Shown here one piece after another: positions 21,052 through 54,564 of a stretch of DNA of 64,000 bases. The number at the start of each line of letters is the position of its first letter. The first letter of the stretch is position 1. The position numbers and the translations under genes were made by a program. The notes under the pieces are model-generated. The model was not told where the DNA came from. It did not search any database and saw only the letters and a list, made by a program, of their open reading frames with translations. This DNA is from Gautieria morchelliformis (Eukaryota > Basidiomycota > Agaricomycetes > Gomphales > Gomphaceae), in assembly GCA_015179125.1 (NCBI GenBank), contig WHVA01000113.1:186001-250000 (forward strand), in the 5' to 3' direction.

Positions 21052-21239
21052 GCAGAAAAGTCTCTCCCATAGAGGACCGGCGGTCGTACTGCGTGTCGCA
21101 GCCGCCATAGGTGCGTTCGGAATCGGAGACAGCGACTCGGAGATCGCAACCTCTTCCGCACACACAGCGTACGACAGCCCTTCTTCTTACGTCGATCTCC
21201 CAACCCCGGAAATCCCGTCCCACATTTCTCCTTCCGACA

Positions 21240-33599: not shown

Positions 33600-33775
33600 G
33601 CATCCCCTTCGACGACTGCCCACCCACAGGCTGGGGCTTTAGCCTGGACCTGGCCTGAACCCGACCCGGCCCTTGAAGAAGGGCCGGGCTCAGAATTTGA
33701 CGAGCCCGAGCCCCTCCAGGCCAAGCCCAAGCCCGGCATTTTGAGCCCAGCCCCAGCCCACAGAACACTAACTAC
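33600..33775 (+). repeat. hAT-type subterminal repeats and right end
   Basis: Just downstream of the transposase remnant is a run of GGGCYYG/CCCGAGCCC-like words (for example GGGCCGGGCTCAG, GAGCCCGAGCCC, CCAAGCCCAAGCCC), ending in CAGAACACTA. Clustered short GC-rich subterminal words are typical transposase-binding regions of hAT elements. The matching left end was not found. Confidence 0.5.
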
Positions 33776-34032
33776 AAGGGGGGTGCAGGGTAGGGTAGAA
33801 CAACAGCAAAAGAACAAAGGGTTGGAAAGTATATCTGACATGAAGAAGCAACGAGACTCCAAAAGGGGGCCAGACATATGGTCTTGCTGTGCTGCAAGGC
33901 GATTCCGGTGGGTCTGAGTAATAGAGTTGAAAGAAAAAAGGATAAAACAAGGGGTGGGAATATCGGAACTATCAGAGGGTCAGAATGTGAGTGGAACTGA
34001 GTGTCAGAAGTTGGAGATGCATGGTTGTAACA
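33776..34032 (-). repeat. Partial LTR beside zinc-cluster gene copy I
   Basis: Read on the minus strand, a polypurine tract (AAAGGGGAGATAC, 34033-34047) is followed by TGTTACAACC, as at a Ty3 3' LTR start. The LTR runs leftwards until it meets hAT-end sequence. The equivalent tract and TGTTA start are found at 54200-54213 next to the other zinc-cluster copy, although the LTR bodies differ. Confidence 0.45.
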
Positions 34033-34151
34033 GTATCTCCCCTTTAAGGTCGAGCCCTGTGAAACCACAAGTTGGATCACGTGACCTGTGAACAACAGGG
34101 TGGAGTTCGAAAGATAGCTGGGAAGGAAGATGTATCTTGTCTTGAACCACC

Positions 34152-35036
34152 ATGGCATCTAACGTGGATTTCTCCAAAATGCCTAGCACTGAAATGAAGC
34201 AGCATTTTGCTGACATGGTTGCACAAAAGGAATTGGCTGAGAAATGCAAGGCCAAACAGCGCAAACGGAAGGAGAAAGAACACCAGGAGGAGGAGTGCAA
34301 GGAGAAGGAGCGCCAGGAGAAAGCTTGTAAGGACAAAGAGTGTCGGGAAAAGGAGGAGTGTATCCAGGAAGACAAATGGAAGTGCAATGCATTGAGGAAG
34401 AAAGCTGCTGAGGAAAAGGCTGCCATGGAGAAGGTGGAAAAACAACAGGTGAGTTGGACAAGTTCCATAGGCCCATGGGTGATGCTAATAAGAGACCTAG
34501 GAAAACTTGAGGAGTACGAGTCCGACACTGCATCGGGGTACTCTCCGGAAACCAGGCCGGTGCCTCAGGGCAATTGCAAACAAAATATTCCAGCTTCTGC
34601 GGAGAACCTGGTGGCAGAGTGGAAACATCGTACCGACGAGTTCCAGAGGGCAAGGGCTGAGAAAGCCAGACGGCTTATGGAGTTGAAGGAACTGGAGCCC
34701 GTGATCATGACTGTGGTAACCGGGAAGTGGAAAAAGTGGGAGGAGGAAGATTCAAACATAGAACACAATGGGGCTCCATGCAACCCTTGTGAGGTGCAGG
34801 GCCTCAAGTGCGTATGGTCGACCAATCCTCAGGAGACCTTGTGGGAGAGGTGTCAGGACGTGAGGAAGAGGTGTGAGGTTGATGGCTGTTTGGTGAGGAT
34901 TGACCGTCACTGTGTGCTGACTAAGCTCGGCGAGGCGCGCCCATCACAGATGGATGCTGGTCACGTGATCATGTCGATGGGAAAATGGGTTCGACCTAGA
35001 GAACGATTATCTCAAAAGGCTTCGCTTTTGACATAG
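34152..35036 (+). CDS. Coiled-coil/zinc-cluster protein carried by an LTR element, copy I
   Basis: 294 codons from ATG 34152. Residues about 20-100 are almost entirely Lys/Glu/Arg with regular heptads (EKCKAKQRKRKEKEHQEEEC), a long coiled coil. A mixed middle follows. Residues about 205-255 hold a Cys array (PCNPCEVQGLKC..CQDVRKRCEVDGC) that fits a two-module zinc cluster. The ATG is 120 bp from a polypurine tract plus TGTTA LTR start on the opposite strand, so the gene is antisense to that LTR. Its stop lies at the edge of repeat R1. Copy II near 44.3/54.0 kb has the same arrangement. Function unknown; a DNA- or RNA-binding accessory protein is a guess. This copy looks whole. Confidence 0.5.
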   Translation: MASNVDFSKMPSTEMKQHFADMVAQKELAEKCKAKQRKRKEKEHQEEECKEKERQEKACKDKECREKEECIQEDKWKCNALRKKAAEEKAAMEKVEKQQVSWTSSIGPWVMLIRDLGKLEEYESDTASGYSPETRPVPQGNCKQNIPASAENLVAEWKHRTDEFQRARAEKARRLMELKELEPVIMTVVTGKWKKWEEEDSNIEHNGAPCNPCEVQGLKCVWSTNPQETLWERCQDVRKRCEVDGCLVRIDRHCVLTKLGEARPSQMDAGHVIMSMGKWVRPRERLSQKASLLT

Positions 35037-35762
35037 TTTAGAGTAGGCAATGATAGTAGACTCTCAATGAATATTTAGAGAAAACTATCAAGGACTGAGT
35101 TCTGTAGCTATCAAACAAGTCTACAGTTACTTCAGGGGGTAAAACAGTAATTTCTGGATGACTTGTTTGCATATTTGTGGTAGCTATTTATACTATAATA
35201 GTGATGACTACCAGTGTTCAGGATAATGAGTAAATGGGTCGAAAAACTATGTGTAAATAAAGGGGTGACTATTTGTAGTCATAAAGCCATGAAAAAGATG
35301 GGCATAATAACAGGGGTGATAGACTTTGAGATAGAGTCTTGTATCTACTATACAAAGCTCCTGTCTACATGCTGTTAGGATAATAATCAGCTGGACGTGT
35401 CATGGAGTACAATAGAAAATGAAAACTGAATTTCTCTTGTGTAATATAAATGCTGCTCTTGGTGATAGGGCCGCCATCTCTGTGCCTCTTCTGTGGGGTA
35501 GCTAATCAAGTATATGTGCTTGGAATGACATTCTGTCGTCATTCCGTAGTGTCCAATACTCCTGCACAGTCTACATGCCTCTGCGGCGTTTGGTGCCCAC
35601 ACCCACTTGGTGCCTGTGGCCTGGCGCCTGTCGACATCATGGCCGATGCCATCTGCCGACAGGCGCGCTGTCTCTGGTCGGCCACATGTGGCCGATGCCG
35701 GTACTCTATGTTCCTGTATCTTATCTAAGCGATAGATAAGATAGCTGTCAATCGTGATGTCA
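35030..35762 (-). repeat. LTR-like repeat R, copy 1
   Basis: Reverse-strand match to 43372-44095. In its own orientation it starts TGACATCA, has a hairpin (ATCTTATCT..AGATAAGAT), a TATA box (AGTATAAATAG) about 550 bp in, and ends ..TCA. Similarity to R2 continues for some 130 bp past the end into the tail of the zinc-cluster gene. Confidence 0.65.
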
Positions 35763-35939
35763 TCTGGCGCTTGCCCGCATCAATATCTATGATGTCATGA
35801 GCATTGTTTCCATTTCCTTAATAAATCCTTCTTTTGTTCTTTTTGTTAGTTTCTATATATAAGAGTGATTTAAATAACACAGTTGCATCTATCACAACAC
35901 CCAGGACCGCTGCACTCATCAGAAGAGCATTTGCAATAC

Positions 35940-36183
35940 TTTTGAGTGGTCTGTTGTTTATTAATAAAACAGATAAGAAGAAGCAATGGGAGGATGCATG
36001 AAGGGCCAAGCAGGAACGGAAGGAACAGGAAGCGCAGGCCAAGGCTGCAAGAATAGCCAAGGAAGAGCGTAAGGAGTTGGAAAGGAAAGCTGAGGCCGAC
36101 AAGAACGCCGAACTTGAGCATAAGAGGCTTGATGACCTTTTGAAAGCCAAGCGGGTTCAGCAAGCATTGGTGGATCAAAATAT
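35940..36183 (+). pseudogene. Coiled-coil fragment of a zinc-cluster gene (copy III)
   Basis: A Lys/Glu/Ala-rich helix (ELERKAEADKNAELEHKRLD) ends in ALVDQNMHH. Copy II has the matching ADVDQNIHI after its own coil. At 36184 the sequence changes directly to Ty3 integrase and the open frame continues. It marks a recombination or insertion junction. Confidence 0.5.
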
Positions 36184-37283
36184 GCATCATCGGCCTTATG
36201 GCTCCCTGCAGCAGCTTCTGATACCCAAGAAACCTTGGAATTATATATCCATGGATTTCATTCAGCAGTTGCCGGCGTCTTCAGGATTCACTGCAATCCT
36301 TGTAGTAGTTTGCCACTTAACCAAGCAGAGCATATTCATCCCAACTTACAACACAGTCACATCTGCAGGCCTCGCCCGCCTGTTTGTCTTGCATGTGTTC
36401 TCGAAGCACGGTGTCCCTAGTCATGTGACATCAGACCGAGGTTCGGAATTCATCTTGCACTTTTTCCATTCCCTTGGTAAGGCTCTCAACATGAAACTGC
36501 ACTCCACCTCAGGATATCATCCTGAAGGTGATGGTCAAACCAAATGTGTAAACCAAACTCTGGAACAGTATCTTCATGTGTATTGCAACTACCAACAGGA
36601 CAATTGGTCCGAGTTGCTACCACTCACCGAGTTTGCATACAACAATGCTCCCAGTGCAACTACAGGCATATCACCCTTCTTTGCCAACAAGGGATACAAC
36701 CTGAACCTCATGGTTCACCCTGAACGGGACCTCACATCCTCCTGAGCCTGAGACTTTGCAGTTGACCTTGACAAGTTACATGCTACCCTGAAGGAGCAAA
36801 TTAAACTCGCTCAATCTCGGTATCAGGTCTCAGCTGATGTGGGTCGCCCTCCCACTCCCGAGTTCGCGATAGGATCCTCCGTGTTTGTAAAAGCGCAGTT
36901 CTTCCGGACAACCCAGCCCTCAAAGAAGCTGTCTGAGAAGTACCTTGGTCCCTTTGCGATTATTGGCCAGGCTGGATCCTGAGCTTACATTCTACACCTG
37001 CCAGATAGCCTTCGGGCAGTCCACCTGGTCTTCCATGTCTCCATGCTCAAACCTGCAATACCAAACGCCATTCCGAACCAGGTTCATCTCCACTGCCTTC
37101 AGTCAAAATCAACGGTGAGACAGAGGATGAGATTTCCAAGATTCTTGATTCCAAGATCAACCAATGACGTAGACCCTGTAACCTCCTGTACCTTGTCCAT
37201 TGGGCTGGTTATGAAGGTACCGATGAAGAGACGTCATGGGTCCTTGCGACCGAGCTCAGCCATGCAGCCGAGATCGTGACCAT
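36184..37283 (+). mobile_element. Element C, left piece: Ty3 integrase and 3' region
   Basis: Integrase core (WNYISMDFIQQLPASSGF; VTSDRGSEF; YHPEGDGQTKCVNQTLEQYL) runs to a chromodomain-like end near 37260, where LINE 1 begins. The Gag, protease and RT regions are absent. About three breaks. About 690 bp of it (from 36590) is repeated, with several percent divergence, on the other side of LINE 1. Confidence 0.75.
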
Positions 37284-38728
37284 CTTGTCCCATGATGCAT
37301 GTCCGTTGGTGTCACAGTTGATGCATCTGTACCGCGCCGGGTCGATCTCTTCACATTCCACCGTCTTGTGTGCCCCTCTGCACGTCCCGTGCATGTCGTC
37401 GCCTGGGCACTCTGCCGCCATGTGCCTCACGTTGAGCTTTTGACACTTCAAGCACCTCCTCAGCTCCCTTTTCATTCTTCTTGCCCAGGTGCGCTTTCCT
37501 GCTATTATCAGTCCTTCCCGTATGCTCTGATTTGCAGCTTGGATGGATGAGAACTTAGCTATCAGTGGGCCGAGCGCTGTCCTTGCGTTCTTCGGCTCGC
37601 CGGCTTGATCCATCTCGTCAAGATCAACGTGTTGCTGGGCAGTCTCGAATCTCTTTCGATTTTCTTGAGCTCCCCCATGGCCTCTGGGGCGTGGGTCAGC
37701 AGGAAATACTCTACCAGGACTGCAACGGCCCGCTCTTTGATCACTGAGGTGCCGCCGAGCCTGTGCGCGAATTGCGTCTTGTTTGCCTGGCCCCACTTGG
37801 CCGCTGCGGGCGTGTCCAGCTTGTACACAACACCTCCGTTGGCTAATATTTTGGCTCCTATGAATTTGATGTTGGTGTTGATACTGATGCCTTCTAGTTG
37901 TTCCAGCGCCTGGTTTGCCTTGGCTATTAACTCTTGTTCCATGAGGTTTCCCAGCGCGCGTTGTGTTCTGGTCTAGGATCTTTGTCTATCAGTAATTGAC
38001 ACACCCTGGCCTTCGCTCTGGCCAGGTTGCTTGGGTGCGATAGAGGGACATTACCTCTGAGCACTGCCGCGTACGTGTTCTCCGTTGCCTGTTCCCCTCT
38101 CACTTCGCTCCTTATTCTCTGGATGCTACAGACCTCTTCTACCACCAGGCTGGCCTCATCCATCATGTTCTTTGAGGTGTCTGTGATCTCGTGCGTGGCC
38201 TCTATGATCGAGTCGACTTTGCTGAGTACGGGCGCTAGGCTCTTTTCAATGTATTGCATGATGGCTGTACCTAGGCCTCTGGCTGCCTCATCGTTCATTA
38301 GGATGGCAACCAATCTGGCGCCCTCCTCGAGTGCCTTGCCTGTGGAACTGTGGGCGAGGGAGAGCAGGATATAGCTGAGCTGTTCTGTCATCACCGGGCT
38401 GTCCTTGGCTATGAAGCCTTGCTTGTCCAGGAAGGCTCGTGCTTGTTCTTTGGTGTGTACTCACGTGTATGGATCTGCTATCAGCTCGGCTCTAGTCTTG
38501 GTGTTTGTCTGTTGGCTTCTCGCTCTCATTCTGAGCGTTAACGTGGCGACAGGTGGGTGGGGCTCTGCGCTGGATGGCATGGCCCTTTTGGTGCCTTTTG
38601 TTGTGGAGGCTTTTTTGCTAGTGCTTAGTGTCATTCGAGGTGAACTATCAATAGCTGGAGATTGTGTGTAGGTGGGGATTGGAATTTTAGGGTTTTTCGT
38701 GGTGGTGGTAGGTGTGAGAAAGTTTTTT
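37284..38728 (-). pseudogene. LINE 1 ORF1, inverted segment
   Basis: From the 5' end near 38728 the minus strand gives a Thr/Ser/Pro-rich start, a helical region (MTEQLSYILLSLAHSS, near 38390), TYAAVLRGNVPLSHPSNLAR, FIGAKILANGGVVYKL, WARRMKRELRRCLKCQKLNV, two CCHC knuckles (CPGDDMHGTC.., INCDTNGHASW) and then the break at 37284. It is closely related to LINE 2 ORF1 (51843-53378). Several frame changes and stops split it. ORF1 products coat LINE RNA. Confidence 0.8.
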
Positions 38729-41700
38729 TCCACAGACCAAGTCACCGCTCACCTTGCAGCTCTTACAAATGCCATATCAGAGACGGCAAAAGAGGTAATC
38801 CCATCAGCAAACTGTCACCATACATGAAGCGCTGGTGGTCTATGGAGCTGACGCAGATCAGAGTGGAAACCAGGAAATTGGGTAAAAAGGCCTATGTGAG
38901 GCACAGTGATCCAGCAGACAGCACGCACGAGAGATACAAGAGAGCTAGAAACGACTACGCAAGTGCTATCAAGAGCAGGATCATTGGAATGATTTCCTGG
39001 ATGGCATTGACCAGAAGACAGTCTGGACGGGTCACAAATACACGATGGCTCAAGCTTCGGACGGCAGGAGTGCGAGGATCCCCATGCTGCAAAGTGCTCG
39101 ACAGGACAGCTCAATATGGGTAGCAGACACAAATGAGGTGAAAGCAGACATGCTGTTCGGGATGTTCTTCCCACAGATGAGCACCGACAGCGAGGTCGCC
39201 CAGACGAGCCACCTGTACCCTGAACCGGCATTCAACTTCCAGCCGATAAGTGACGAGCAAATACGAATAGCGGTTGACAAACTAAACCCCTTCAAAGCTA
39301 CTCGGGTGAACGGTATTCCAAATGTTGTCATAAAGCAGACCATTGACGTGCTTCTCCCATATATAGGACCCCTGTTTAGAGCAACCTTCAGCCTCGAAAT
39401 ATATCCGGCCGAATGGAGAGACTCTGTCACGAGGGTCCTGCGCAAGCTGGGAAAGACCGACTACACAGCACCAGGGGCATATTGACCTATTGCACTGCTA
39501 GATACATTAGGAAAGGTCCTCTCGGCCTGTGTCACCGAAGACCTGGTGAAAATGGCAGAAAAACATTTCCTGCTGCCAGATAACCACTACAGGTGCAGAC
39601 TGGGGTGCGCGACAACTGATGCTATCCACTACGTGGTAGGAGCCACCAAGGAAGCGTGGCAATGAGGCAAAGTACTGGGGGTACTATACTTGGACATCAA
39701 GGGAGAATTCCCCAGCATAGTACTTGACCGCTTGATCCATAACATGTGTCAGAGAGGGATACCGGCTGAGTACACTGGCTGGATATGCAGAAAAGTGGAG
39801 GGACAGGTCACCACGCTGAGCTTCAACGACTACACCACAGCGCCAAGACAGATAACACGAGGAATGGACCAAGGGTGCCCTTTATCCGCCATAGCATACC
39901 AATTCTACAACAGCGACCTCATAGAAGTCATACAGCCTGCAAAAGGTGAGGACTGTGTTGTGTTTGTCGACGACACCACCATCACCATGGTAGGATCCGA
40001 CCTAGCAGAGGCCTTTAGCAAGCTGTCCAACATCATGGCGAGGCCGACGGGTGCGCTGGACTGGGCGTGCGACCACAACTGCAAGTTTGTGGGGGAGAAT
40101 TTCAGCCTGATGGGACTCACCAGACAGTGAGAAAAAGATCCTACAAGACCCAGAAGAACCAGGCCAGTGACGAGGCCCACCATTAAAATAGGCCAGCACA
40201 TCGTCAAACCCACAAAGACACACAGGTTCCTCTGCGTCGTCATGGATCGAGAACTATGGTTCAGGCAACAGGTACATTACGCACCCAAGAAGGGCGATGC
40301 ATACATCAATCAGTACAGGATAATGATGAAGCAGACAAGAGGAGCTACAGCTAAGCACATGCGAAAATACTACCTGGCGGTGGCAATACCTCAAATGCTC
40401 TACATGGCTGACATCTTCCTTATTCCAGAATACGAGCGCACTAAGGGGACCAAGGGGCACATCAACAAGCTAGCATGAGTTCAACGGCAGGCGGCACTAA
40501 CCATAACAGGAGCCATGAGAATGACAGCCACCAATACACTCGACGCACACGCCAACCTACTACCTTTCCCGCTGCTGGTGCAAAAGTGATACACAGGGCA
40601 GCGGCGCATCTGGCTCACCTACCTGACACCCACCCACTCACCGCGAAGGCCCACAGGGCGGCCGAAAGGTATGTCAAAAGGCACCGGACACCCCTTCATG
40701 AGATCCTACATGCCTCTGTAATCCAACCACACAGAATGGAGAAGATACATACCGTTGTTCACAGCCCCAAATGGTCCCCAGCGTTCAATATTCAAATCTC
40801 CCGCAACAAAGACCAGGCGCTCGAGGAAATAGAGGCGGAGTCTGCAGACGTCATGGTATACTCAGACAGCTCGAGCATAGAGGGCAGGGTAGGAGCGGCC
40901 GCGGTGCTATACAGAGGAGGGAGAGAGATTCTGGCTGTCCGACTGTACATGGGCACAGACCAAGAGCACACGGTCTTTGAGGCTGAACTGGCAGGAGCTG
41001 CAATGGATGCCAAGCTGCTAAACACGGAGAGGGGGCAAAGATACCTCATCGCAACTGACAACCAGGCGGCAATCCTCACCACGAGAAAGGAGAAGTCGGT
41101 GCCAGGGCAGTACCTAATCAACGTGCTCCATAGACAAATTGAAGGAGTTGTGCAGCAGCAACCGGGAATGACAATGTTGTTGAGGTGGGTACCAGGACAT
41201 GAGGGCATGGCAGGGAACGAGCGAGCGGACGAGAAAGCAAAGAAGGCTGCGAGAGGAGAATCTAGCGAGGAAAGGTTCATTCCAATCGAATGTAGGGGAG
41301 AGTTGCCCATCAGCAAGACAGCTGAGATCCAGCGACACCAGAAGGAGATCAAACAGAGAGCCAGAGCAGTCGTTGCTAAGTCCCCACAAGCTCGAACCTC
41401 ACACAATATTGACCCGTCCATGCCATCTGTAGCATTCTCCAAGCTCACCAAAGACATGCCTCAACGGCACGCCAGCTTGCTAGTACAGTTGAGAATGGGG
41501 CACATCAAGCTCAATAAACACCTGCACAAAATCAGCAAAGCCACCTCACCAACATGTCCGGCTTGCAGGAGAGCGAACAAGACAGTGTACCACTATCTCT
41601 TTAGGTGCCCGGCACACAGGACTCAGAGAAAAGGGATGGAGAAGGGATTGCGCAGGGGGGCGGCCTCGATAAAAACGTTACTCAGAAAGCCCAGAGCGAT

Positions 41701-41737
41701 GAAACACCTGTTCAAGTTCGTGGAAGACACACAGTGA
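38729..41737 (+). pseudogene. LINE 1 ORF2, reverse transcriptase and RNase H part
   Basis: It starts inside ORF2 (SPYMKRWWSMELTQIR, near 38815). RT follows (FNFQPISDEQIRIAVDKLNP; LGVLYLDIKGEFPSIVLDRL; MDQGCPLSAIAYQFYNSDL; catalytic VVFVDDTT near 39960), then RNase H (VMVYSDSSSIEGRVGAAAVL, near 40850; LLRWVPGHEGMAGNERADE) and a Cys/His end (CPACRRANKTVYHYLFRCP). Stop near 41737. In-frame stops at about 39484, 39663, 40128 and 40476 make it inactive. RNase H after RT fits the fungal Tad1 clade. Confidence 0.85.
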
Positions 41738-42012
41738 TTCAAGGCATCTTACGGAGACATGACACTCCCAGAGAAGCAGGAGGACAGGAAGAAGTGAAGG
41801 GGAGACAGCATGAAAACATGCTACAAGTAGCACAAGCCTTTCCTCGCCCACACCGGCATGGACATGCTCGGGGCGTAGCCCAATGAGCAGAAGCAGAGAT
41901 AGAGGGTGAAAGGGGAGAAGGCGCCACAGCAGGTCTGAACACATGTATTGACTGTATAGCATAGGGCAATGCCACAATAGATGTAAAATTAGATACAAAA
42001 AAAAAAAAAAGA

Positions 42013-42760
42013 AAAACATTCTACCAACAGGACAATTGGTCCAAGTTGCTACCACTCACCGAGTTTGCGTACAACAATGCTCCCAGTGCAACTACAGGCA
42101 TATAACCCTTCTTTGCAAACAAGGGATACAACCCAAGCCTCATGGTTCACCCTGAATGAGGCCTCACATCCTCCTGAGCCTGAGACTTCACAGTTGACCT
42201 TGACGAGTTACATGCTACCCTGAAGGAGCAAATTAAACTCGCTCAATCTCTGTATCAGGTCTCAGCCGACGCATGTTGCCCTCCCGCTCCTGAGTTCGTG
42301 ATAGGATCCTCCATGTTTGTAAAAGCGCAGTTCTTCCGGACAACCTGGCCCTCAAAGAAGCTGGCTGAGAAGTACCTCGGTCCCTTTGAGACTATTGGCC
42401 AGGCCATATCCTGAGCTTACATTCTACGCACTGGATAGCCTTTGGGAAGTCCACCCGGTCTTCCATGTCTCCATGCTCAAACCTGCAATCCCAAACACCA
42501 TTCTGAACCGGGTTCATTCTCCACCGCCTCCAGTTGAAATCGACGACGAGACAGAGTATGAGATTTCCAAGATCAACCGACGACATAGACCCTGTAACCT
42601 CCTGTACCTCATCTGTTGGGCTGGTTATGAAGGTACTGATGAAGAGACGTCATGGGTCCTTGCAACCGAGCTCGGCCATGCAGCTGAGATCGTGACCAAC
42701 TTCCACTCAGCCTACCCTGCCAAGCCTGGACCATGGGTTCCCTGGACCCAAGCTTTGGCT
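42013..42760 (+). mobile_element. Element C, right piece: integrase end and chromodomain
   Basis: It resumes in the integrase (CAACAGGACAATTGG, matching 36593) and runs to a chromodomain (YEISKINRRHRPCNLLYLIC; GYEGTDEETSWVLATELG). The overlap with the left piece and several percent divergence show two copies, not one copy simply split by LINE 1. Broken (about three changes). Confidence 0.75.
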
Positions 42761-42979
42761 TTCCCATTTCCTTTCACTCATTTTACAGTCACTTTCTTAG
42801 TTAGACACAACACTCTTTTCTATGTTTTATCTCGGCTGTTTTGCCAAATAGCTATGCTTGTAGTTCTCGGTTCCTCTCTGTCTGTCCATTTCACTTCCAT
42901 TCCCAATCCCAATTCCGAAACAAAAAGCACCAAGAAAAAATATTCATATTAGGATAGAAAACCCGAAAAACATTATTAA

Positions 42980-43252
42980 TTAGTTGTCTTCCATAGTAGC
43001 ATCCCCATCCAGGTCCCTTTCCCTGTCATCCCACTCATCACCCAAATCCCCATCCTTTGTCTTGTCCACATCCTCGTTCCCACTCTCCGAATCTGCTCCC
43101 ACCTCCGCTCTTTCCTCTGTCTCTTTTTCCTTCTCTTTTTCCTCTGTCTTGTTCCCTTTTTCCCCACTTCCCGAACCTGAACCTGAACCCCCAGCCAAAT
43201 TGAAACTGTCCCAACCTGAATCTGAACCCGACCACTGTTGTGATATACGCAA
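42980..43252 (-). other. Antisense acidic reading frame downstream of element C
   Basis: Ninety codons: a Gly/Ser run, a Glu/Lys run and an Asp-rich end (DEWDDRERDLDGDATMEDN). It is antisense to element C and lies between its chromodomain and repeat R2. It may be the C-terminal exon of a gene whose other exons are not evident, or low-complexity chance coding. Confidence 0.3.
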
Positions 43253-43371
43253 CTATTCTATTTTAAGTTATCTATGTATACAAACAAACTAATAAAAGAA
43301 GAAAAGAAAAAAAACGACTAAAAAGATAGGAACGACACTTATGACGGACATCGACACAGACGACAGATACA

Positions 43372-44095
43372 TGACATCATGAACAGGTATCTTATCTACA
43401 GATTAGATAAGATACAGGGATACGGGCGTCGACCACGTGTGGCCAATCAGAGATAGCGCACCTATTGACTGATGGCATTGGCCATGATGTCGACAGGCGC
43501 CAGGCCACAGGCACCGAGGAGGTGCGGGCACCAAATGCCACAGAGGAGTGTAGACTGCCCAGGAGCACCAGACGTCGTGGAATGACTTCAGAATGTCATT
43601 CCTAATACGTGTGTTCAATCAGCTGCCCCACAGAAGAGGCACAGAGACAGCAGCCCCATCACCAAGCCTAACATTTATGCTAGGCAGGAGGGATTTAATT
43701 TCTATTTTCCATTGAGCTCCATGACACAACCAGCTGACTACTATCTTGACACCATGTAGACAGGGGCTTTGTATAATAGGTACAAGACTCTATTCCAAAG
43801 CTTAACAAACCTGATACTATCCCCATCACTCCCATGAATTTATGACTATAATTAGTCACCCCTCTAGTTACAAGTAGTTTTTTGACCCGTTAACTCACTA
43901 TCTCGAACACTAGTAGTTACCACTAGTATAGTATAAGTAGCTACTACAAATGTATGAATCAATCATCCAGAATCAACTGTTTCACCCCTTGAAGTCACTG
44001 TAGTCTTGTTTGATAGCTACAGAACTTAGATCTCGATAGTTTAATCCAATTCTTCGTTGAGAGTTCACTATTATTGCTTACTCTAGACTACTTCA
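43372..44095 (+). repeat. LTR-like repeat R, copy 2
   Basis: TGACATCA start, hairpin (TATCTTATCT..AGATAAGATA, 43392-43420), TATA box (AGTATAAGTAG, about 43928) and a ..TTCA end. It is inverted relative to R1 and matches R3 at the right window edge. Similarity to R1 continues to about 44225, into the 3' end of zinc-cluster copy II. Confidence 0.65.
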
Positions 44096-44297
44096 AAAGC
44101 GAGGCCTTTTGACTTAGTTATCCCTTAGATCGAGACCATTCTCTTGTCGACACGGTCATGTGACCTTCATCCATCAGTGCCAGACGCGCCTCGGGAGGCT
44201 TAGTCAGCACACAGGAGAGGGACAGATATAGTGGTCCCAACCGCTGAGCAATAGAAATTGTTTTCTAAAGGCACAATCTAACATCTTAATCTAAAAT

Positions 44298-44790
44298 CTA
44301 CAAGGCAGCGTTTTCCGCCGCTGTGGTCCACAAGTGCAGCCGCTTGTTCATCTGGGAATTGTGCCACTCGATCCGCTGCACAAAATCCAGGACACCCTGA
44401 AGCAGGTGATTGCTTCACTCCAGTTGCTGGTTTTGTTGGGACAATAAATCCCTCAACATGCTGGACGACGCTTTGATCGATGCAACTTTGGCCTTCTTCA
44501 GCGCCCGTCCCTCAGCTCCCTTATCATCCCTTCATTTCCACTTCCCATCCAGGAAGCTACACCGAACTTTTCAGTCCACGCATTGCTGGCATGCGGTTTT
44601 CTTTCTGCGCAAACACAGAGTGTTGCACCTCCTGCAAGGATTGCATGGCTCACCCTGTAATGAAAAAAAATACATAAGTCACACCCGGACCAAACCGACC
44701 TGAGGACTTGCCTCTTCACCCAACTCCTCCTCATCTGACTCCTCAGTCATCTTTCTTTTCTTCGGTCCCAAGGACCTTGGCTTCACCTTT
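44298..44790 (-). pseudogene. Zinc-cluster gene copy II, 3' part
   Basis: Minus strand from the LINE 2 boundary: KVKPRSLGPKKRKMTEESDE, an acidic patch, a small intron, then the Cys array (GEPCNPC..C..CQQC) as in copy I, a Lys-rich helix, and the end at 44298 beside R2. The 5' part of the same gene lies on the far side of LINE 2 (53527-54080). Not intact. Confidence 0.5.
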
Positions 44791-44999
44791 GTTTTTTTTT
44801 TTATCCAATTTATTGTCTTTTGTGGCAAGGCCCTATGTAAGACAAAGCATACAAATCGCCGGTCGCAAATAAATGTTCTGTCCACCCTATTCTTCTCGGT
44901 CTCTACTTGCACTCTGTGGGTGAGGCCCCAAGCGTGTCCGTGCCTGCTTAGGCTGGGTGTGATGTTTCCATTCATTGGTTCTGTTTTCTCCCCTGTCCC

Positions 45000-45923
45000 C
45001 TACTGTGCCATCTCTTCTCCCTGCTCCTGAGGCAGCGTTAGATCTCCGTAGGTCTTTTTGAACCTCTCCGTGCCGCTGATGTATTTGAACAGCGGTCTCA
45101 TCGCCTTGGTCCTAGCCAGCAAAACTCTTGTCGAACTCGCGCCCCTACGCAGCTCTCTTTCTAGTTCCTTCCTCTGCTTTGCATACTTTGGGCACCTAAA
45201 CAAATAGTGGTGCACCGTCTTGTTGGCCGCCTTGCATGCTGGGCACCTGGGTGAGGCCTCTTTACCGATATTGGCTAGGTGCTTATTCAGGGTGATGTGT
45301 CCGGTCCTGAGCTGTACAAGTATGGCTGCGTGCCTTCGGGGCATAGTGGCGCTCAGTCTGACAAAAGCTATGGATGGCATCGTTGGATCAATTCTGTGTG
45401 CGATGCTAGCTCGAGGTGACTTAGCAAAAGCTGCCTTCGCTTGTTTTTTGATCTCCTTGTGGTATCTCTGCATCTCCGCTGCCTTGCTGATAGGAATATC
45501 GCCCCTGCACTCTAAGGGAATCATTATCTCTTTGCTGCTCTCCCCTTTCGCTGCTCTCTTCGCTTCTTCGTCTGCCCTCTCGTTTCCCGGTACTCCCTTG
45601 TGACCTGGTACCCACCTCATGTCCAGCCTCACACCCTGCTGATACAATAGAAGTCCTTCGATCTGTCTGTGGAGTGTGTTGACCAGGTGTTGGCCCAAAA
45701 TGGGTTTCTCCCTCCTCGTCGTCAGGATTGCTGCTTGGTTGTCAACGGCGATCATATACTTTGTCTGCCTCCTCGTGTTCAGCAGCTTCCCTCCCAACGC
45801 TGCTCCCACCAATTCTGCCTCGAACACTGTGTGTTCGTCCTCCGCTCCCAGATGTAGCCTTACCGTCTGCTTTTCGACCCCTCGTTCATATAGAACTGCC
45901 GCTGCGCCCACCCCGCCTGAGCC
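45000..45923 (-). pseudogene. LINE 2 ORF2: RNase H and C-terminal zinc region
   Basis: It resumes after the insertion at GSGGVGAAAVLYERGVEK. RNase H blocks (DEHTVFEAELVGAALGGKL; AVDNQAAILTTRREKP; MRWVPGHKGVPGNERADEEA) and the C-terminal CPACKAANKTVHHYLFRCPK follow, ending just before 45000. This end is open throughout. Confidence 0.85.
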
Positions 45924-48632: not shown

Positions 48633-51600
48633 GAGCGGTCTGCAAAAACCTTCACTTCCACGTCGTCCATTTCGACCTCGCCTATTGCCCAGTCTTTGTC
48701 ATTAGGTATATGTATCTTGAAGGATGGTTCCCATTTCGGTCCCAGGACCACTGGGTGAATCTTCTCCATCTGGCCGGGCTTCAGGTCGAAGGCGTGCATG
48801 ACCTCGTGCAACGGTGATCGATGTCTCCTTATGTATCTGCTGGCTGCCTTCAGGACCTTCGGCGTGAGTGGGTGGTAGTCTGGTAGGCATGCCATGTGCA
48901 CTGCTTCTCTGTGAACTACCTTGGTGACCAGGAGGGTGAAAGGGAGTAAGTTGGCATGCACATCTAAGACGTCGTTAGCAGTAGTTCTTAGGGCACCCGT
49001 TATGAACAGAGCTGCTTGTCTTTGGATCCTGGCTAGCTTATTTATCTGTCCCTTCGTGCCTTTGCTGTGGTTGGTTCCTAGTAAGAGGAAAACATAAGCC
49101 ACGTATAGGACTTTTGGGACTGCTACCGCCAGATAGTAGTGGCGCATATGCCTCGGTGCCACCCCCTTCGATGGTCTCGCCAAACGCTTGTACTGGTTGA
49201 TGAATTTGTTCCCCTTCACCAGTGCGTAGTTTGTGTGCTCTTTGAACTTAGTTCCTGGTCTAATATGACACCTAGGAACTTGTGCGTGGTGGATGGCTGG
49301 ATGGTGTGTCTGCCGATCCTGATGGTCAGTCTGCAGATTGGTCTGGACTTCTTGATGCCCGTTGGGTCACGTTCTCTCTTTCTGGTGAGGCCCATCAGTC
49401 CAAATTTCTCTATGGCAAAGTGGCACTCATGTGTCGCGGCCCAGTCCATAGCCCCTTCCTGCCACGCCATCATGTTTGCTTCCTGCCACACCATCATGTT
49501 TGCAAAGCTTGTCAAAGGCTTCCCGAAGGTCCTTCCCTTCCGCAATCATCATCGTGTCGTCCACGAATCCAACGGCGTCTTCCCCCCCGCGCAAGTTGGG
49601 AAGTCTGCACTGCAAAATTGATATGTGATGGCCGAGAGTGGGCAACCTTGGTCCATCCTGCAACCTATCTCCATCATCTGTGTGTTGTAGTCATCAAGGC
49701 TCATCACTGTTCGGCAGCCCTCGACTTTGCGCTTAATCCACTCAGTGTACTCCCTTGGTACACCTCTTTTGTGCATGTTGTGAGCCAGCTTGTCTAGAAT
49801 GACACTCGGGAAAGCACCATTGATGTCCAAGAACAAGAGTCCTAAGACCTTGCCCCTTCTCCACGCGTCTTTTGCTGCACTTATCATGTACTGGAGAGCA
49901 TCGGTGGTCGTGCGGCCCGGTCTGCAGCCGAAATGATTCGCTGGCAGTATCTGCTTGAGCTCCGCCATCTTGACCAGGTCCTCCACTACGCAGGCCAATA
50001 GGACTTTCCCTATTGTGTCGAGTAGGGCTATTGGGCGATATGCCCCAGGTACAGTGTAGTTGGACTTTCCAGGCTTGCGGAGGACTCGCGTTATTGAATC
50101 TCTCCATTCTGATGGGTACACCTCCAGGCTGAACGTCACGTGAAACAAGGGCCCTAGGTATGGTAGCAGAGTGTTAGCGCACTGCCTCAATATGACATTG
50201 GGGATACCGTTCATTCCCGGGGCTTTGAATGAGTTTAGCCTGTCGATGGCGCACCTGATTTGCTCGTCGGTGATCGGCATAAAATTGAAGGCGTCTGGGG
50301 GATAGGTGCGGCTCGCTGTGTCACTCGCTACTGCATCTTGCGCTGCGGTTTTGGGGAAAAATGTGTCGAATAGCATCTCGGCTTTTCGGTCGTTTGTGTT
50401 TGCGGTCCAGGTGGTTCCATTCTCGTGCTTGACTGAGAGTGTTGGGATGCGTGTTCTCCCGCCATCTAAGGAGTCCGCCGACGTGTACTTATGCGCTGTC
50501 CAGACCGTCTTCTGGTCGATGCCTTCTAGGAAGTCCTCCCAATGTTCGCGCTTCGACTTCTCGATTGCACTCACGTACTGGTTCCTCGCTTGTTTGTACT
50601 CCATGTGCGCGGTGTGCGTGGGATCATTTTTGCTTGCAAGGGATTTCCTGCATAGTTTCCTGGATTCTGTTCTGAGGCGCGTTAGCTCGAGTGACCACCA
50701 ACGCTTCATGTAAGGAGACAGCTTAGTCTTGGGGACGACCTCCTCTACGGTCTCTAGGATCGCAGCCATTAATCCCTCTAGGTTTCGTTGGAAGTCTTGC
50801 TTGGTGGATGGGGTAGGTTCATTTATCCCACTCATTAATCTGACCGTGAGCTTCTCATTGAATACTTTCCAGTCCACCTGCCTGTAGTTGCGCTTATGGG
50901 TGTCGCTCGCTTCCATGGTGATGGCGTTGATTATGGTGTGGATCGGGTAGTGGTCGCTTTTTGCCAGCTGATCCTCTGGGACTGGAGTGCTTCTGATCAG
51001 CATCTCAATGAGTGCAAAGGATAGGAAAACATTATCAGGGCGTGTGTGGTTGCCTGTGGACATGGCTTTGAGGGTTGGCAGGCCCCTAGGTAATACCATC
51101 TGCATGTCATAGTCCACAGTCACGTCGATCAGGAGTTGGGCGGCGTCCAGGTTGTGTCTCGTGAACAGATGTGCGTTGCAGTCATCATCCCACTGTGGAT
51201 GATGTCTATTAAAATCCCCTACCCACAGCATGCCTGTCGCTTCCCCATCGTTCACGTTGTCGGTAGTTATCTGGCCCTGTAGGTATCTCCATATGTCACG
51301 GATGCTGTCAGAATTTGTGCAGTCGCAATAAAAGTTGTAAATTATTACTATACCCATATGAGTCTTAATCCTTATCGCCATAATATCTGGTGTGTCTACC
51401 TCCACCGCCATCCATTTGTTTGTTGTAATTCTCTTGTTGATTAAGATCATCGATCTGGTGCGTTTGCTGTTGTCTCTGTAGTGGGTTTTGGGGTATATCG
51501 TATACCAGTGCGGGGTAGCCCTGGCATTGCCGAGAAAATCGATGTAAGGTTCCTGTACTGCTATGATGTCATATTTGTCCGGTGGGCACTTTACAAGCAT

Positions 51601-51681
51601 GTCGACGGTTGCAGTGAGGGATTTGTTGACATTTTGTTGTCTAACTCGCAGTTGTTTGGCTCCATTGTTTTCGTCGCTCAT
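48633..51681 (-). pseudogene. LINE 2 ORF2: endonuclease and reverse transcriptase
   Basis: From ATG 51681 (MSDENNGAKQLRVRQQNVNK), an AP-type endonuclease (IIAVQEPYIDF; LWVGDFNRHHPQWDD; AKSDHYPIHTI) is followed by RT (LLFLDINGAFPSVILDKLAH; MDQGCPLSAITYQF). The first 710 codons are open; a frame change near 49600 then puts the catalytic AVGFVDDTM in another frame. A 24-bp tandem duplication (49459-49506) lies about 20 residues beyond it. The reading continues (NKFINQYKRLARPSKG; MRHYYLAVAVPKVLYVAYVF) to VEVKVFAD, where the LTR-type insertion begins. Confidence 0.85.
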
Positions 51682-51842
51682 CCTCGGTAAGCGTCGGTGG
51701 GGTTGTCATAGTCTTCTTGGGGTTGGCTGTTCATTTGTTCGGCCCCAATTCCATAGTCGTCCAGGGTCCTTTGCCTCGTGCCCCTGTTGCTCCAGCCTCT
51801 ATCGCTATGTCCCACCCTAGGGTTGCTCCTACCCCCTTGCTC

Positions 51843-53378
51843 TCAGCCCCGGATGTACACATTCCCCTCCCATCTCCCGCGCGCCTCATTCGCCTCCATC
51901 TGCCTTCCATTGTGGTATGCATCCCTCTGCTCGTTCAGCATCTCTACATCTGCCGTCGAGCCTCCTGCGCCCCACTGCTCCCACGTCCATGGTTGCTCAC
52001 TCGGGAAAAAATTGTAAGTGTTATCCGGGTCTGTCCTCTCTACCACCTGACACGCGTCTCTGAAGCTTGGGCAGGTCTGGTCCCATGACGCATGACCTTG
52101 CCCGTTGCAATTGACACACCTGAACTTGGCTGGGTCGGTCTCCTTGCAGTCTGCCATTTTGTGGGCATTTCCACATGTGCCGCAAGTGTCTGGGCCACCG
52201 CATTCCGCAGCTAAGTGTCGTGCGTTGTATTTCTGACACTTCAGGCATCTGCGAGGTTCCTTCTTCATCCTTCTTGCCCAGGTGCGCTTTCCCGCAATGA
52301 TTAATCCATCTCTAATCGCTATATTGGCGGCCTCTGTCGAGGCGAATTTTGCAATTAGGTGCGCGGAGCGCTGGACTTCCGTCCTCCTATGAACTGGCTT
52401 TATCCACCTCGTGGCGATTAGGCTGTCGTCAGGGAGTTTGGAGTCTTGCTCAATTTTCCTGAATTCTGACAGTGCGTCTGGTGCGTGGCTTATCGGCACA
52501 TACTCTACTATCACTGAGACTGCCCTGTCCTTCACCACCGATGTGCCGCTAAACTTCTTGACGAATTCTGTTCTATGGGTTTGGATCCATTTTGCGCGGA
52601 GGGGTGTGCTGAGGTCCAAAACTATCCCCCCATTGTTGAGAATCTTGGCCCCTATGAACATTACTTCCGTTTCTCCCCTCAGCTCTCCTAGCAGCACAAT
52701 GGCCTCGTTTGCCTTGCTGACAAGTTCCCATTCCATGAGTTGCGCTAGCGTGTTCCGCGTTGCGCTCGGGTCTTTGTCTATTAGGATCTGACATTCCCTT
52801 GCTTTTGACTTCGCGAGGTTGTTCGGGTGCGATAGTGGGACGCTACCTCTTAACGCTGCTGCGTATGTGGTACCCGGGTTCCCGGGTCCTCCACTCGCTT
52901 CCCTAGCCCGTTGTGCACTGGTGGACTCTCCAATCGCCTGCTGGGCCTCTGCCATCGTTGCTTTCGCAGATTCTGTGGAATCTTTGGCGTTGTCCAGGAC
53001 TGCTGTAACTTTGTCTAAGATGGGGGATATGTTCTTCGTGATATACTGGGCTATGATCTCTCCTGCTCTACTGGCCATGTCATCCAACATAAGCATGGCT
53101 ACCGCTCTGGCTCCTTCCTGTATCACGTTTGCACCCACGCTTTGGGCTATGGATAGCAATATATAGCTGAGCTGTTCCATCGAGGGCTGATCGTCTTTCA
53201 CTAGGTATCCGTTTCTGTCGAGGAAAACGCGGGCAGCCTCTTTCGACCTAATGGTCGAGGTGGGGTCCGCGATGAGCTCGGCTCTGCTTTTCGAGCTCGG
53301 GTTCTGTGCATTGGCTCTTGTGCGGCTGCTGTTCCCCTGCGATAGGGCGGGCAGCAGCGTGTCCGAGTTGGGTGGCAT
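51843..53378 (-). CDS. LINE 2 ORF1, intact RNA-binding protein
   Basis: 511 codons without interruption: Ser-rich start, long helical region (EQLSYILLSIAQSVGANVIQ), TTYAAALRGSVPLSHPNNLA, FIGAKILNNGGIVLDL, VKDRAVSVIVEYVPISHAP, KRTWARRMKKEPRRCLKCQK and a CCHC knuckle series (CGGPDTCGTCGNAH; CVNCNGQGHASW), then a Trp/Gln-rich tail. Non-LTR ORF1 proteins of this type bind the element RNA as a ribonucleoprotein. Compared with LINE 1, this copy is clearly younger or better kept. Confidence 0.85.
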   Translation of the reverse strand: MPPNSDTLLPALSQGNSSRTRANAQNPSSKSRAELIADPTSTIRSKEAARVFLDRNGYLVKDDQPSMEQLSYILLSIAQSVGANVIQEGARAVAMLMLDDMASRAGEIIAQYITKNISPILDKVTAVLDNAKDSTESAKATMAEAQQAIGESTSAQRAREASGGPGNPGTTYAAALRGSVPLSHPNNLAKSKARECQILIDKDPSATRNTLAQLMEWELVSKANEAIVLLGELRGETEVMFIGAKILNNGGIVLDLSTPLRAKWIQTHRTEFVKKFSGTSVVKDRAVSVIVEYVPISHAPDALSEFRKIEQDSKLPDDSLIATRWIKPVHRRTEVQRSAHLIAKFASTEAANIAIRDGLIIAGKRTWARRMKKEPRRCLKCQKYNARHLAAECGGPDTCGTCGNAHKMADCKETDPAKFRCVNCNGQGHASWDQTCPSFRDACQVVERTDPDNTYNFFPSEQPWTWEQWGAGGSTADVEMLNEQRDAYHNGRQMEANEARGRWEGNVYIRG

Positions 53379-53526
53379 GGCTCTATTGGGTCGCCTCTTT
53401 TTGGGGAAGCGGTGGATGGGTAGTAGGGCGTCGTCTGAGGTAGGCTAGCTATCACAAAAATGTGTGTGCGTGCAGGTGTTGTGATTTTGGGTTTTTGGTG
53501 GATGTGGTTAGCATGAGAAAGTTTTT

Positions 53527-54080
53527 TGGGCTTCACCTTAGCCGCACTTCTCTCCAGCACATGTTTTGCCGTGAGGATCCAAGCTTGTGCTGTGGCAGAA
53601 TCCATGACCAGTGGCTCAGGTGACAGGATATGGATGTTTTGATCCACATCGGCTTGCCAGATCTTTTCAGCTTCCAGAATCTTGATAAACCTTTTGCGCT
53701 CACATTCGGCTGTCTCCCCCCATGCCTTCCGAGCCTCCTTGGCTTTTGCTCTTAAGGCCTCCCACGCCTCTGAGGTCTCCCACACTTTCCACGCCTCCTC
53801 AGCTTGCCATGCCTCTTCAGCTTGTTGGGCTTCCTCAGTGTTTTGAGCCTCTTCGGCTTTTCCTGCAGCTTCGGCCTGCGCTTCCCGTTCCTTCCGCTCC
53901 TCCTCGGCTTTTTCCTCGTCCTCCTACCATTTCTTCTCCAAGGCCTCCTTGCACTCCTGTGCAAATCGACGCTTTTCCTGGAGTGCTTTCTGCCACTCAT
54001 CCGCTTCACGCTCTGCCCACATGAGCTCTGCATCGAGCTCCTTGATCTCATCAATGGTCTTTTCTGGCATTCCTTGCATG
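53527..54080 (-). pseudogene. Zinc-cluster gene copy II, 5' part
   Basis: From ATG 54080 (MQGMPEKTIDEIKELDAELM) a very long Glu/Lys/Ala/Trp-rich coiled coil follows, then ADVDQNIHIL and ILTAKHVLERSAAKVKPKK, where LINE 2 enters. The ATG is 132 bp from the TGTTA start of the plus-strand LTR at 54213, the same antisense layout as copy I. Broken by the insertion and one or two further changes. Confidence 0.5.
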
Positions 54081-54212
54081 ATCTGGGAATTTGATGATGA
54101 TGGGAGAAGACAAGAAGCAGAATGCCAAACAAAGCTTATGTAAGCTTCCCAACCTGGTGATCTCCAGGATCTTGCTTATGGCCTCATGGGCTCAGCCATA
54201 AGGGGGAGGTAC

Positions 54213-54564
54213 TGTTATGATCTGTTCCCGAATCCAATCCCGAAGCCTCAGCTTCAGTACTTGTTCGGGAACATCAGGTTTCACTCGGCTTCCTTCAGGT
54301 TTCTCTTCGCACCTTCCATCACCCCTGACTTCCTTTTCTAGTTAGTTCCCCATTTTCCTGACCCTTTGTTCCCCTGTCCGTTGATCCAATCATTGAGCCC
54401 TCTCGACCGTGCACGCTACTTTCCTATATAGACCCCCAGTCCATGTATCGTAGTTCCCCAGTTCAGATATCAAATTAGCTTCTCAAACATTAGACCCCTC
54501 TGCTTGATATCACATCCAATTCTCAGCTTCTAGCCAAGACTGTTCCCGAAATTAGGGCAGAACA
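54213..54564 (+). repeat. Ty3-type LTR (LTR-C) with polypurine tract
   Basis: A polypurine tract AAGGGGGAGGTAC (54200-54212) precedes TGTTATGATCTG; the block ends GGGCAGAACA at 54564. TATA-like CTATATAG is at about 54424. Tract plus TG start identify it as a 3' LTR in plus orientation, with antisense zinc-cluster copy II directly upstream. No second copy was found in the window. Confidence 0.6.

Follow-up and report, generated by a model that had tools for sequence, protein, structure and literature searches.

A clade of Ty3/gypsy chromoviruses in Gautieria morchelliformis was found to carry an antisense accessory gene with a zinc cluster between pol and the 3' LTR, in the related families A1, A2 and A3. 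Each family is also saturated with a CGG-core word of its own, both in LTR arrays and inside pol. The protein probably reads the word of its family and regulates the element in trans. The window (the whole stretch of DNA analysed) is 64,000 nucleotides long. The features discussed below lie in it as follows.

20589..26793, plus strand: chromovirus of family B, lacking the antisense gene and bearing the CGGAA word of A1
33771..34032, minus strand: 3' LTR remnant of an A1-type element (polypurine tract and LTR homology)
34152..34448, plus strand: exon 1 of copy 1 of the antisense gene, coiled coil (ORF and translation)
34449..34500, plus strand: probable intron of copy 1, GTGAGT...TAG, 52 nt
34501..34907, plus strand: exon 2 remnant of copy 1, decayed zinc cluster (tblastn)
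34904..35899, plus strand: repeat R, dispersed, about 1 kb, breaking into copy 1
36188..37281, plus strand: A-type integrase/chromodomain remnant (72% and 61% identity to A1 pol)
42022..42733, plus strand: end of an A-type pol, integrase C-terminus/chromodomain (62-64% identical to A1 pol)
44301..44801, minus strand: remnant of a third antisense gene, of A2 type (matched by the L056 protein in tblastn)
53525..54079, minus strand: copy 2 of the antisense gene, A2 type, coiled-coil part only (ORF and tblastn)
54213..54605, plus strand: 3' LTR of the element of copy 2 (polypurine tract, TGTTA start)

At copy 1 the minus strand has the polypurine tract GGGGAGATACTGTTA followed by a TGTTA LTR edge at 34032. 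The ORF starts at 34152 on the plus strand, 120 nt from the edge and antisense to the LTR. At copy 2 a polypurine tract on the plus strand is followed by a TGTTA edge at 54213, and the ORF starts at 54079 on the minus strand, 134 nt from the edge and again antisense. The initial annotation had described these tracts, edges, orientations and nearby starts, and all were recovered. Its reading of the flanking tract as an LTR boundary was borne out by homology to the A1 LTR at 33771-33998 (75% identity to the L040 LTR) and to the A3 LTR at 54425-54605. The LTR of copy 2 (L044) had TCGG/CCGA words within its first 115 bp.

Both copies are decayed. Exon 1 of copy 1 matched other A1 loci in its start and GTGAGT donor, and tblastn of the L041 protein gave a match at 34152-34907 with 46% identity. 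The unspliced reading is open and the spliced reading is out of frame before the cluster. The fourth cysteine of the cluster is gone by our own reading of the translation, and repeat R truncates the gene near 34907. In copy 2 the frame is broken by a stop after 51 codons, and the coiled-coil part alone is visible. Copy 2 was matched at 53752-53525 by tblastn with A3 exon 1 and at 53749-53303 with L056, the final part of the latter being doubtful as it overlaps a LINE-type ORF. That ORF (stop-to-stop 51843-53444) starts where the 3' side of copy 2 has been lost. The earlier claim that the 3' ends of both genes adjoin repeat R was not upheld: R adjoins copy 1 and was not found at copy 2. With 40 of its 1460 candidates scored, R had at least 44 matches; elsewhere in the window it occurs at 43236-44214 and in part at 63806-64000. 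The integrase/chromodomain remnant at 36188..37281 lies in an orientation that does not fit copy 1. The third remnant, overlooked in the initial annotation, had 52% identity to the L056 protein (E 1.6e-44). It sits downstream of the pol end at 42022-42733, whose order and orientation fit it.

Outside the window copies, 45 loci were sampled. An LTR was present in 39 of these, with the gene antisense to it in 38, and pol in 29, with the gene antisense in 28. For A1 (29 loci) an LTR was found in 26/29 and a pol end in 20/29, and the gene was antisense in 26/26 and 20/20, respectively. The counts for A2 (13 loci) were 10/11 antisense to the LTR and 6/7 to pol, and for A3 (3 loci) 2/2 and 2/2. L064 was excluded from the counts; it was intended as the continuation of the A3 element of L063 and looked like another A2-type region. 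Among 150 listed A1 pol ends, 76 had an antisense-gene match within 3 kb among the 150 gene matches listed, and the gene lay downstream on the opposite strand in 76/76 of these pairs. The layout is real and general, far beyond chance, and the orientation counts over loci and pol ends rule out a host gene lying near LTRs by chance. This was the check set beforehand by the initial annotation: the other copies were neither unlinked to LTRs nor randomly oriented, and its proposal of a retroelement accessory gene antisense just inside the 3' LTR held across the sampled loci.

The host element is a Ty3/gypsy chromovirus, as evidenced by the PR-RT-RH-INT order with a C-terminal chromodomain and by paired LTRs, a polypurine tract and a 5-bp target site duplication. 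Pfam models matched in the L041 pol ORF were RVP_2, RVT_1, RNase H, Integrase_H2C2, rve, SH3_Tf2-1 and Chromo. L040 is a full element: its two LTRs, 682 bp each, are identical, it has a polypurine tract and the duplication TCTTT, and its antisense gene sits between pol and the 3' LTR. The duplication of L039 is TGGCC. No tRNA was found in a scan of L040. A1 is abundant, with at least 150 matches (150 scored of 490 candidates, all matching). Amino acid identity in pol is 72-76% between A1 and A3, compared to 42% between A1 and B, and A2 and A3 share 83-86% in the aligned pol pieces. A pattern scan of viral contigs for relatives gave 290 pattern matches with no relative among them.

The start of the antisense gene lies 111-134 nt inward of the LTR edge, and the gene reads away from the LTR. 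This direction is given by the gene structure, and a promoter would lie on the LTR side. The gene carries a conserved intron. The frame is kept up to the cluster in 15/20 loci when the intron is spliced out, compared to 4/20 when it is read through, and intron lengths differ among loci in their remainder modulo 3. Purifying selection was evident (median dN/dS (omega) 0.18 over 64 pairs). An antisense RNA without a protein is unlikely given the omega and the frame-keeping introns.

The protein has a coiled coil at its N-terminus, followed by a Zn2Cys6-like cluster between basic flanks, and ends in a further coil. The six cysteines are invariant in 9/9 aligned A1 proteins at the spacing of the Zn2Cys6 family, and the pattern is also present in A2 L056 and A3 L063. 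The isolated 42-aa cluster of L040 scored 23.1 bits against PF00172 (cut-off 21), and larger or whole proteins scored 12.7, 18.1 and 11.6 bits, under the cut-off. The A1 half-clusters match the profile in swapped order, the second half weakly. The Pfam scan of the antisense protein returned Zn_clus-type or chance models only and no VANC. PDB sequence searches returned no Zn2Cys6 protein, just weak coiled-coil and chance matches. Profile comparison showed the A1 and A2 antisense proteins to be distant homologues (34% identity, hhalign probability 93.5, E 2.3e-7), fuller proteins from elsewhere in the genome being used in place of the window copies. The initial annotation had seen the same kind of gene twice in the window; the two belong to families A1 and A2 and are not copies of one element. 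GAL4-type Zn2Cys6 fungal transcription factors have the same C-x2-C-x6-C-x(7/10)-C-x2-C-x6-C pattern and basic flanks, and CGG is the usual half-site of this family. The protein here differs from them in being element-borne and antisense and in its weak Pfam scores.

The family-specific CGG-core motif is the main point here and was overlooked in the initial annotation. Expected counts inside coding DNA were obtained from synonymous codon shuffles that preserve the protein and its codons. In A1 pol CGGAA was seen 66 times compared to 21 expected and ranked 1 of 512 5-mers; it also ranked 1 of 512 in A1 gag and in the L041 antisense gene. The family B element in the window had 105 CGGAA compared to 18.5 expected. 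The word ranked 1 in two B copies and 2 in the B integrase piece alone. CTCGG ranked 1 in A2 (one decayed element) and A3 (two elements), where CGGAA ranked 65-338, and CTCGG ranked 349-465 in A1 and B. These opposite ranks amount to a double dissociation. The common word of A2 and A3 hardly counts as two independent cases as the two families are close. Motif arrays stand at the LTR start in A1, B, A2 and A3, and TTCCG reached 25 per kb in LTRs compared to 9-14 in coding parts.

The word follows neither ancestry nor host. A3 lacks the word of A1 although it is closer to A1 than B, which has it, so sharing by ancestry alone was rejected. Of the B motif sites in aligned pol 8/47 coincide with A1 sites compared to 0.4 expected, suggesting that some of the sharing between A1 and B is by descent. 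A genome-wide CGGAA bias was ruled out by the controls (copia, a LINE, the C element, which is a further retroelement, and host DNA), in which word enrichment was absent. CGGAA-type words were also present in three A2 loci. The sites fell inside A1 or B pieces in 17/21 cases for L048, 15/20 for L051 and 0/17 for L046. Those of L046 are not explained by such pieces and count against family specificity.

In the mechanism proposed, the antisense gene would be expressed away from the LTR with its one intron spliced out. The protein would most likely enter the nucleus as an oligomer and bind the word of its own family, CGGAA in A1 and CTCGG in A2 and A3. The word would have accumulated in the LTR-start arrays and, by synonymous changes, over coding DNA. 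By marking the DNA of the element, the protein would act in trans, boosting transcription or warding off silencing at all tagged copies. Family B, with the word and without the gene, may be a freeloader on the A1 protein. We infer DNA binding, the role of the protein as motif reader and the sign of the effect. In A1 LTRs the motif CpGs decayed as fast as others (0.27 compared to 0.27, Fisher p 1.0; older copies 0.54 compared to 0.42, p 0.11; younger copies 0.18 compared to 0.21, p 0.29), leaving no trace of lasting methylation protection.

Four other explanations were weighed against a protein that reads its own family's word. A DNA-binding protein of the host, shared by several chromoviruses, might read the motif, and the antisense protein would then do something else. 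This is unlikely. Family B carries CGGAA and its one full copy seen has no antisense gene, as a host reader would allow, but a trans-acting element protein would allow it too. A1 and A3, close relatives in the same host, differ in word, each word has the CGG core expected of the encoded protein type, and neither copia nor LINE nor the C element makes use of the word. Rather less likely is a repressor or copy-number control of HBZ type, which would bind the motifs and lower sense transcription. A spliced antisense coiled-coil factor beside the 3' LTR would suit this, and an antisense promoter in the HTLV 3' LTR and antisense-encoded nuclear retroviral regulators are described in passages of PMC7264820 and PMC11963269. 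However, A1 is abundant with young copies, as the L040 LTRs show, and the body-wide motif density and the presence of the word in B fit a benefit to the element more easily.

The protein might also coat new cDNA through the motifs and aid nuclear entry, integration or pre-integration protection. The spread of motifs throughout the element, coding DNA included, is in line with this, but density peaks in the LTRs, where the arrays stand, so that regulation suits better and coating is very improbable. Least credible is a mutational or codon-usage artefact with no binding protein. The motifs do contain CpG, a mutation-prone dinucleotide. Against this the shuffles hold protein and codons fixed, and two families of one genome have opposite words. 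Of the words resembling the motif, CCGAA and TTCGG show no enrichment in A1 pol and TCCGG is weakly enriched there (13 compared to 8.3 expected, reached by 90/2000 shuffles). Copia has 0.3-0.6 of the expected word count at a CpG content similar to that found in B.

VANDALs belong to the Mutator-like DNA transposons. Their VANC proteins in Arabidopsis act against silencing at short motif arrays in their own family, and the parts of PMC5735166 on this report that related families differ in motifs, that the motifs lie mainly in non-coding DNA and that the unrelated AT9TSD1 carries VANC6 motifs and responds. The elements here likewise have dense family-specific arrays. They differ in being LTR retrotransposons with an unrelated protein type and motifs that fill coding DNA too, the likeness being one of proposed working only. 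VANC-like working in trans is most likely here, with putative binding and anti-silencing.

Among plant Ty3 elements, antisense additional ORFs (Grande gene23, RIRE2, Retand, PvRetro13) are treated in passages of PMC7264820 and PMC11963269. As here, those passages place them between pol and the 3' LTR in most copies, with a suspected nuclear or DNA-binding role. They encode TRP28, SMC-like or unknown domains, unlike the Zn2Cys6-type cluster here, which is accompanied by a matching CGG-core word throughout the element. Retand elements are given there as non-chromoviruses with TRP28 (PF04195) typical, whereas these are chromoviruses and the scan of their antisense proteins and protein pieces gave no PF04195 match. 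The initial annotation knew of no fungal case. An antisense gene, brtn, has been published for Boty-like elements of Botrytis cinerea (Zhao 2011, as cited in PMC7264820 and PMC8365987), also fungal Ty3 chromodomain elements. The citing passages mention no motif system, and brtn is set beside the present families by description only. The pairing of a zinc-cluster gene with a motif had no precedent in the literature searched. TET/JBP dioxygenases on DNA transposons of Agaricomycetes and Pezizomycetes are proposed to counter silencing in the part of PMC12730594 concerned; those are enzymes, unlike the putative sequence-specific protein of an LTR element here.

A fuller reading is offered tentatively. 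The antisense protein and the matching word, written synonymously across the element, may form an LTR retrotransposon self-recognition system. Both would co-diverge between families, the gene would be swapped as a cassette among near-identical backbones, and a distant family would have taken up the word and so profit from the protein. The role would be activation or anti-silencing of tagged copies.

A passage of the review PMC7264820 gives the function of Ty3 antisense genes as unknown. The gene described here comes with a candidate target legible in the sequence, which makes the question of function directly testable. If the reading is true, synonymous sites throughout a retroelement have been remodelled by selection for a word that a protein binds, and the regulator of one element family is exploited by another family. 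Both would be unusual to our knowledge. Sequence-specific transposon self-recognition would then have arisen in fungal LTR elements as it did in plant DNA transposons.

The antisense gene between pol and the 3' LTR was found in three related families of Ty3/gypsy chromoviruses (A1, A2 and A3) and is absent from the one full copy of a distant chromovirus family, B. Locus L040, fetched like the other L-numbered loci from the same genome, is a full A1 element with identical LTRs of 682 bp and a target site duplication (TSD) of TCTTT. Its features are as follows.

427-1108 and 7724-8405: the two LTRs
minus strand: gag and a pol ORF of 1257 amino acids
1231-2460, plus strand: the antisense gene

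Protease, RT, RNase H, integrase and chromodomain were identified in the pol of L041. The zinc-cluster region of copy 1, the A1-type gene at 34152 (+) in the window, was searched against the 122 Mb genome. Of 490 candidates 150 were scored and all 150 matched, the window copy among them. At fetched loci orientation was scored against the two flanks of the gene, with an LTR sought to one side and pol to the opposite side. Among 29 A1 loci the gene was antisense at all 26 with a located LTR and all 20 with a located pol end. The counts were 10/11 (LTR) and 6/7 (pol) for 13 A2 loci and 2/2 each for three A3 loci; an LTR or pol that was missed is not proof of absence, because most loci span only about 1.5 kb on each side of the match. 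The sole A2 exception in both counts was L048, a rearranged locus in which an A1 pol fragment (92% identity) adjoins the A2 gene. In the coordinate lists at least 76 of the 150 listed A1 pol ends had a listed antisense-gene match within 3 kb, downstream and on the opposite strand in 76/76, with a gap of 498-1138 (median 619). This is a lower bound as pairs were drawn from listed matches alone (150 of 2965 pol and 150 of 490 gene candidates). The antisense layout put forward in the initial annotation proves general among these loci, in A1 wherever LTR or pol was located and in A2/A3 with one exception. It is essentially certain that these elements carry an accessory antisense gene.

In the window, a polypurine tract followed by TGTTA was confirmed at both loci, 34032 (-) and 54213 (+). 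The ORFs start 120 nt (copy 1) and 134 nt (copy 2, A2-type, 54079 (-)) away and are antisense to the LTR at both. The genes had been described as two copies from one kind of element; they are remote relatives from different elements, both decayed. The dispersed repeat R, of about 1 kb, had been placed beside both copies; this did not hold for copy 2, which runs into a LINE-type ORF. Further features of the window are as follows.

43236-44214, and in part 63806-64000: recurrences of R
44301-44801, minus strand: third antisense-gene remnant, A2 type, downstream of pol remnants at 42022-42733, plus strand

R is inserted between this third remnant and the pol remnants. R at 34904-35899 gave 44 matches of 75-89% identity besides its 100% self-match, among 40 scored of 1460 candidates. 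Its ends are TG...CA-like, so it is perhaps a solo LTR from another family; no clear target duplication was seen at 34912. Part of the antisense gene's coiled-coil region is fused in the same orientation to an integrase or pol piece, both at 35950-36188 (+) in the window and in L048, a rearranged junction that may be recurrent.

The antisense gene brtn of the fungal element Boty was reportedly described in Zhao 2011. Antisense genes of plant Ty3 elements and Boty brtn are already known from PMC7264820, PMC11963269, PMC8365987 and PMC4227169. No Zn2Cys6 antisense gene or self-matching motif of an LTR element was found among the papers listed by full-text searches of open-access literature, as judged by title and start of abstract. 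The words antisense and zinc are both absent from the main text of 'LTR Retrotransposons in Fungi' (PMC3248453).

The protein comprises an N-terminal charged coiled coil, the cluster and a C-terminal coil, the coils and basic flanks being assigned by eye from the sequence. The A1 cluster is C-x2-C-x6-C-x10-C-x2-C-x6-C with all six cysteines invariant in 9/9 aligned proteins; A2 and A3 have x7 in place of x10. The isolated 42-aa cluster of L040 scored 23.1 bits against PF00172 (cut-off 21) and the larger antisense proteins scored under the cut-off. The A1 half-clusters (L040:1861-1986 (+)) look swapped relative to the profile: the first aligns to positions 16-36, the second to positions 2-13 (weak, 7.8 bits alone). 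The A2 cluster matched in the usual order. Homology between A1 and A2 proteins extends across the cluster and the C-terminal coil (126 columns, probability 93.5, E 2.3e-7). A1 and A3 proteins have a C-terminal TMREE/TMRED/TMKED in common, the remainder being widely diverged. The antisense product is likely a zinc-cluster DNA-binding protein.

In the 19 of 35 examined A1 loci where both points were located (L024 and L043 in this set being one locus), the gene starts 115-128 nt from where the TAACA pattern begins, which puts it 111-124 from the LTR edge. The A3 distances were 128 and 131 nt. The stretch from LTR to start retains CACGTG in 18/21 loci, has about 85-87% identity between subfamilies and is a candidate antisense promoter. 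A GTGAGT donor lies downstream of the start in 20/21 start-bearing loci. The zinc cluster was in frame via a short intron in 15/20 loci and via unspliced reading in 4/20, with one to three in-range acceptors to select from per locus. At L042 the donor is duplicated and no reading was obtained. A1 introns were 41-57 nt, except 94 in L032, which has an exon 1 frameshift. The donor is unchanged in the A3 loci, where CTGAC and TTTAG lie immediately ahead of the cluster. Intron lengths vary in remainder modulo 3, yet the spliced frame is constant, which points to splicing that is likely real. Since the genomic RNA is the opposite strand, the intron could outlast retrotransposition. Median omega was 0.18 over the 64/66 pairs with dS > 0.02, drawn from 12 spliced sequences of 11 distinct loci, all with long open frames, indicating purifying selection. 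Together with the element types and the Zn2Cys6 cluster, intron size points to a fungal host.

Compared segment by segment with L041 or L042, L040 was 96-100% identical along LTR, gag and pol. Identity fell to 86-92% in the segments on either side of the gene and to 73-82% across it. Between L040 and L041 the gene had a dS of about 1.05 and an omega of 0.13. With a gene 18-27% different inside backbones 96-100% identical, the pattern would best be accounted for by a swap of the gene among elements that are nearly identical elsewhere. L041 also has, in the interval separating the antisense-gene end from the pol end, tandem units of the type TCGGAAATGAGG at about 2625-2675 (+), in an array holding four consecutive TCGGAAATGA.

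Zn2Cys6 proteins usually prefer CGG. L040 (7979 bp) contains 117 TTCCG and 32 of its complement CGGAA, 149 in all compared to 30.7 expected from dinucleotides. Its LTR has 25 TTCCG and 1.5 CGGAA per kb, most of them clustered around 1-110 and 500-660. All 512 5-mers were ranked against synonymous codon shuffles. CGGAA ranked first in A1 pol (66 vs 21.5 expected), A1 gag (23 vs 6.7) and the L041 antisense gene (26 vs 11.4), and fifth in the second exon of L022. In old A1 copies CGGAA is largely gone along with CpGs (6 vs 3.7 in window copy 1).

Ranks of the two words by family
A1, L040 / L042: CGGAA 1; CTCGG 465 / 450
B, L043 / window copy: CGGAA 1; CTCGG 373 / 349
A3, L065 / L063: CTCGG 1, TCGGG 2; CGGAA 65 / 338
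A2, L056: CTCGG 1 (10 vs 4.0); CGGAA 68

A1 and A3 had 57 vs 16 CGGAA sites (9 in common) and 8 vs 26 CTCGG sites (4 in common) over 1109 aligned codons. The first 115 bp of the A2 LTR hold 33 TCGG/CCGA across 10 related copies, window copy 2 included, where shuffles gave 5.7 (at most 13 in 300 shuffles). The A3 array in L065 has six TCGG and one CCGA, and the two B LTRs have 6+3 and 9+2 motif sites. The B copy at 20589-26793 (+), without the antisense gene, contains 105 CGGAA/TTCCG vs 18.5 expected, and extra motif sites close to the LTR start set its two LTRs apart. CGGAA-type words also stand out at three A2 loci, which blurs family specificity; sites within A1/B pieces (≥80% identity) were 17/21 in L048, 15/20 in L051 and 0/17 in L046. 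The 17 CGGAA/TTCCG sites of L046 (C532), a locus of A2 type, all lie outside such pieces. Neither word was enriched in the C element, another window retroelement (ranks 152 and 341). CGGAA was unenriched in four copia loci of the 150 listed (ranks 357-473; 0.3-0.6 of expectation over whole loci), in the host-like window region 1-20000 (39 vs 35.9) and in the LINE at 49549-53444 (4 vs 6.4), and was absent from a second LINE at 37283-41740.

The zinc-cluster protein probably reads the CGG-core word. A host factor reading CGGAA is a less likely alternative, suggested by B, which carries the word without the antisense gene. Pol amino-acid identity was 72-76% for A1-A3, 83-86% for A2-A3 and 42% for A1-B; together with the ranks, this means that the word tracks neither pol ancestry nor host. 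B sites coincided with A1 sites in 8/47 cases compared to 0.4 expected, an overlap that may be partly inherited or protein-driven. As for the effect of the protein, anti-silencing or activation is tentatively leaned towards, and HBZ-like repression by the antisense protein is a live rival. A CpG-decay test of methylation protection at motif CpGs was null. In Arabidopsis the motif of the VANDAL anti-silencing protein VANC6 also sits in an unrelated, VANC6-responsive element, according to passages of PMC5735166, as B carries the A1 word here. The simplest reading, with one A2 and two A3 elements, partly decayed and from close kin, as word evidence for those families, would be that the A1 word fits the A1 protein, the A2/A3 word fits theirs, and B adopted that of A1.
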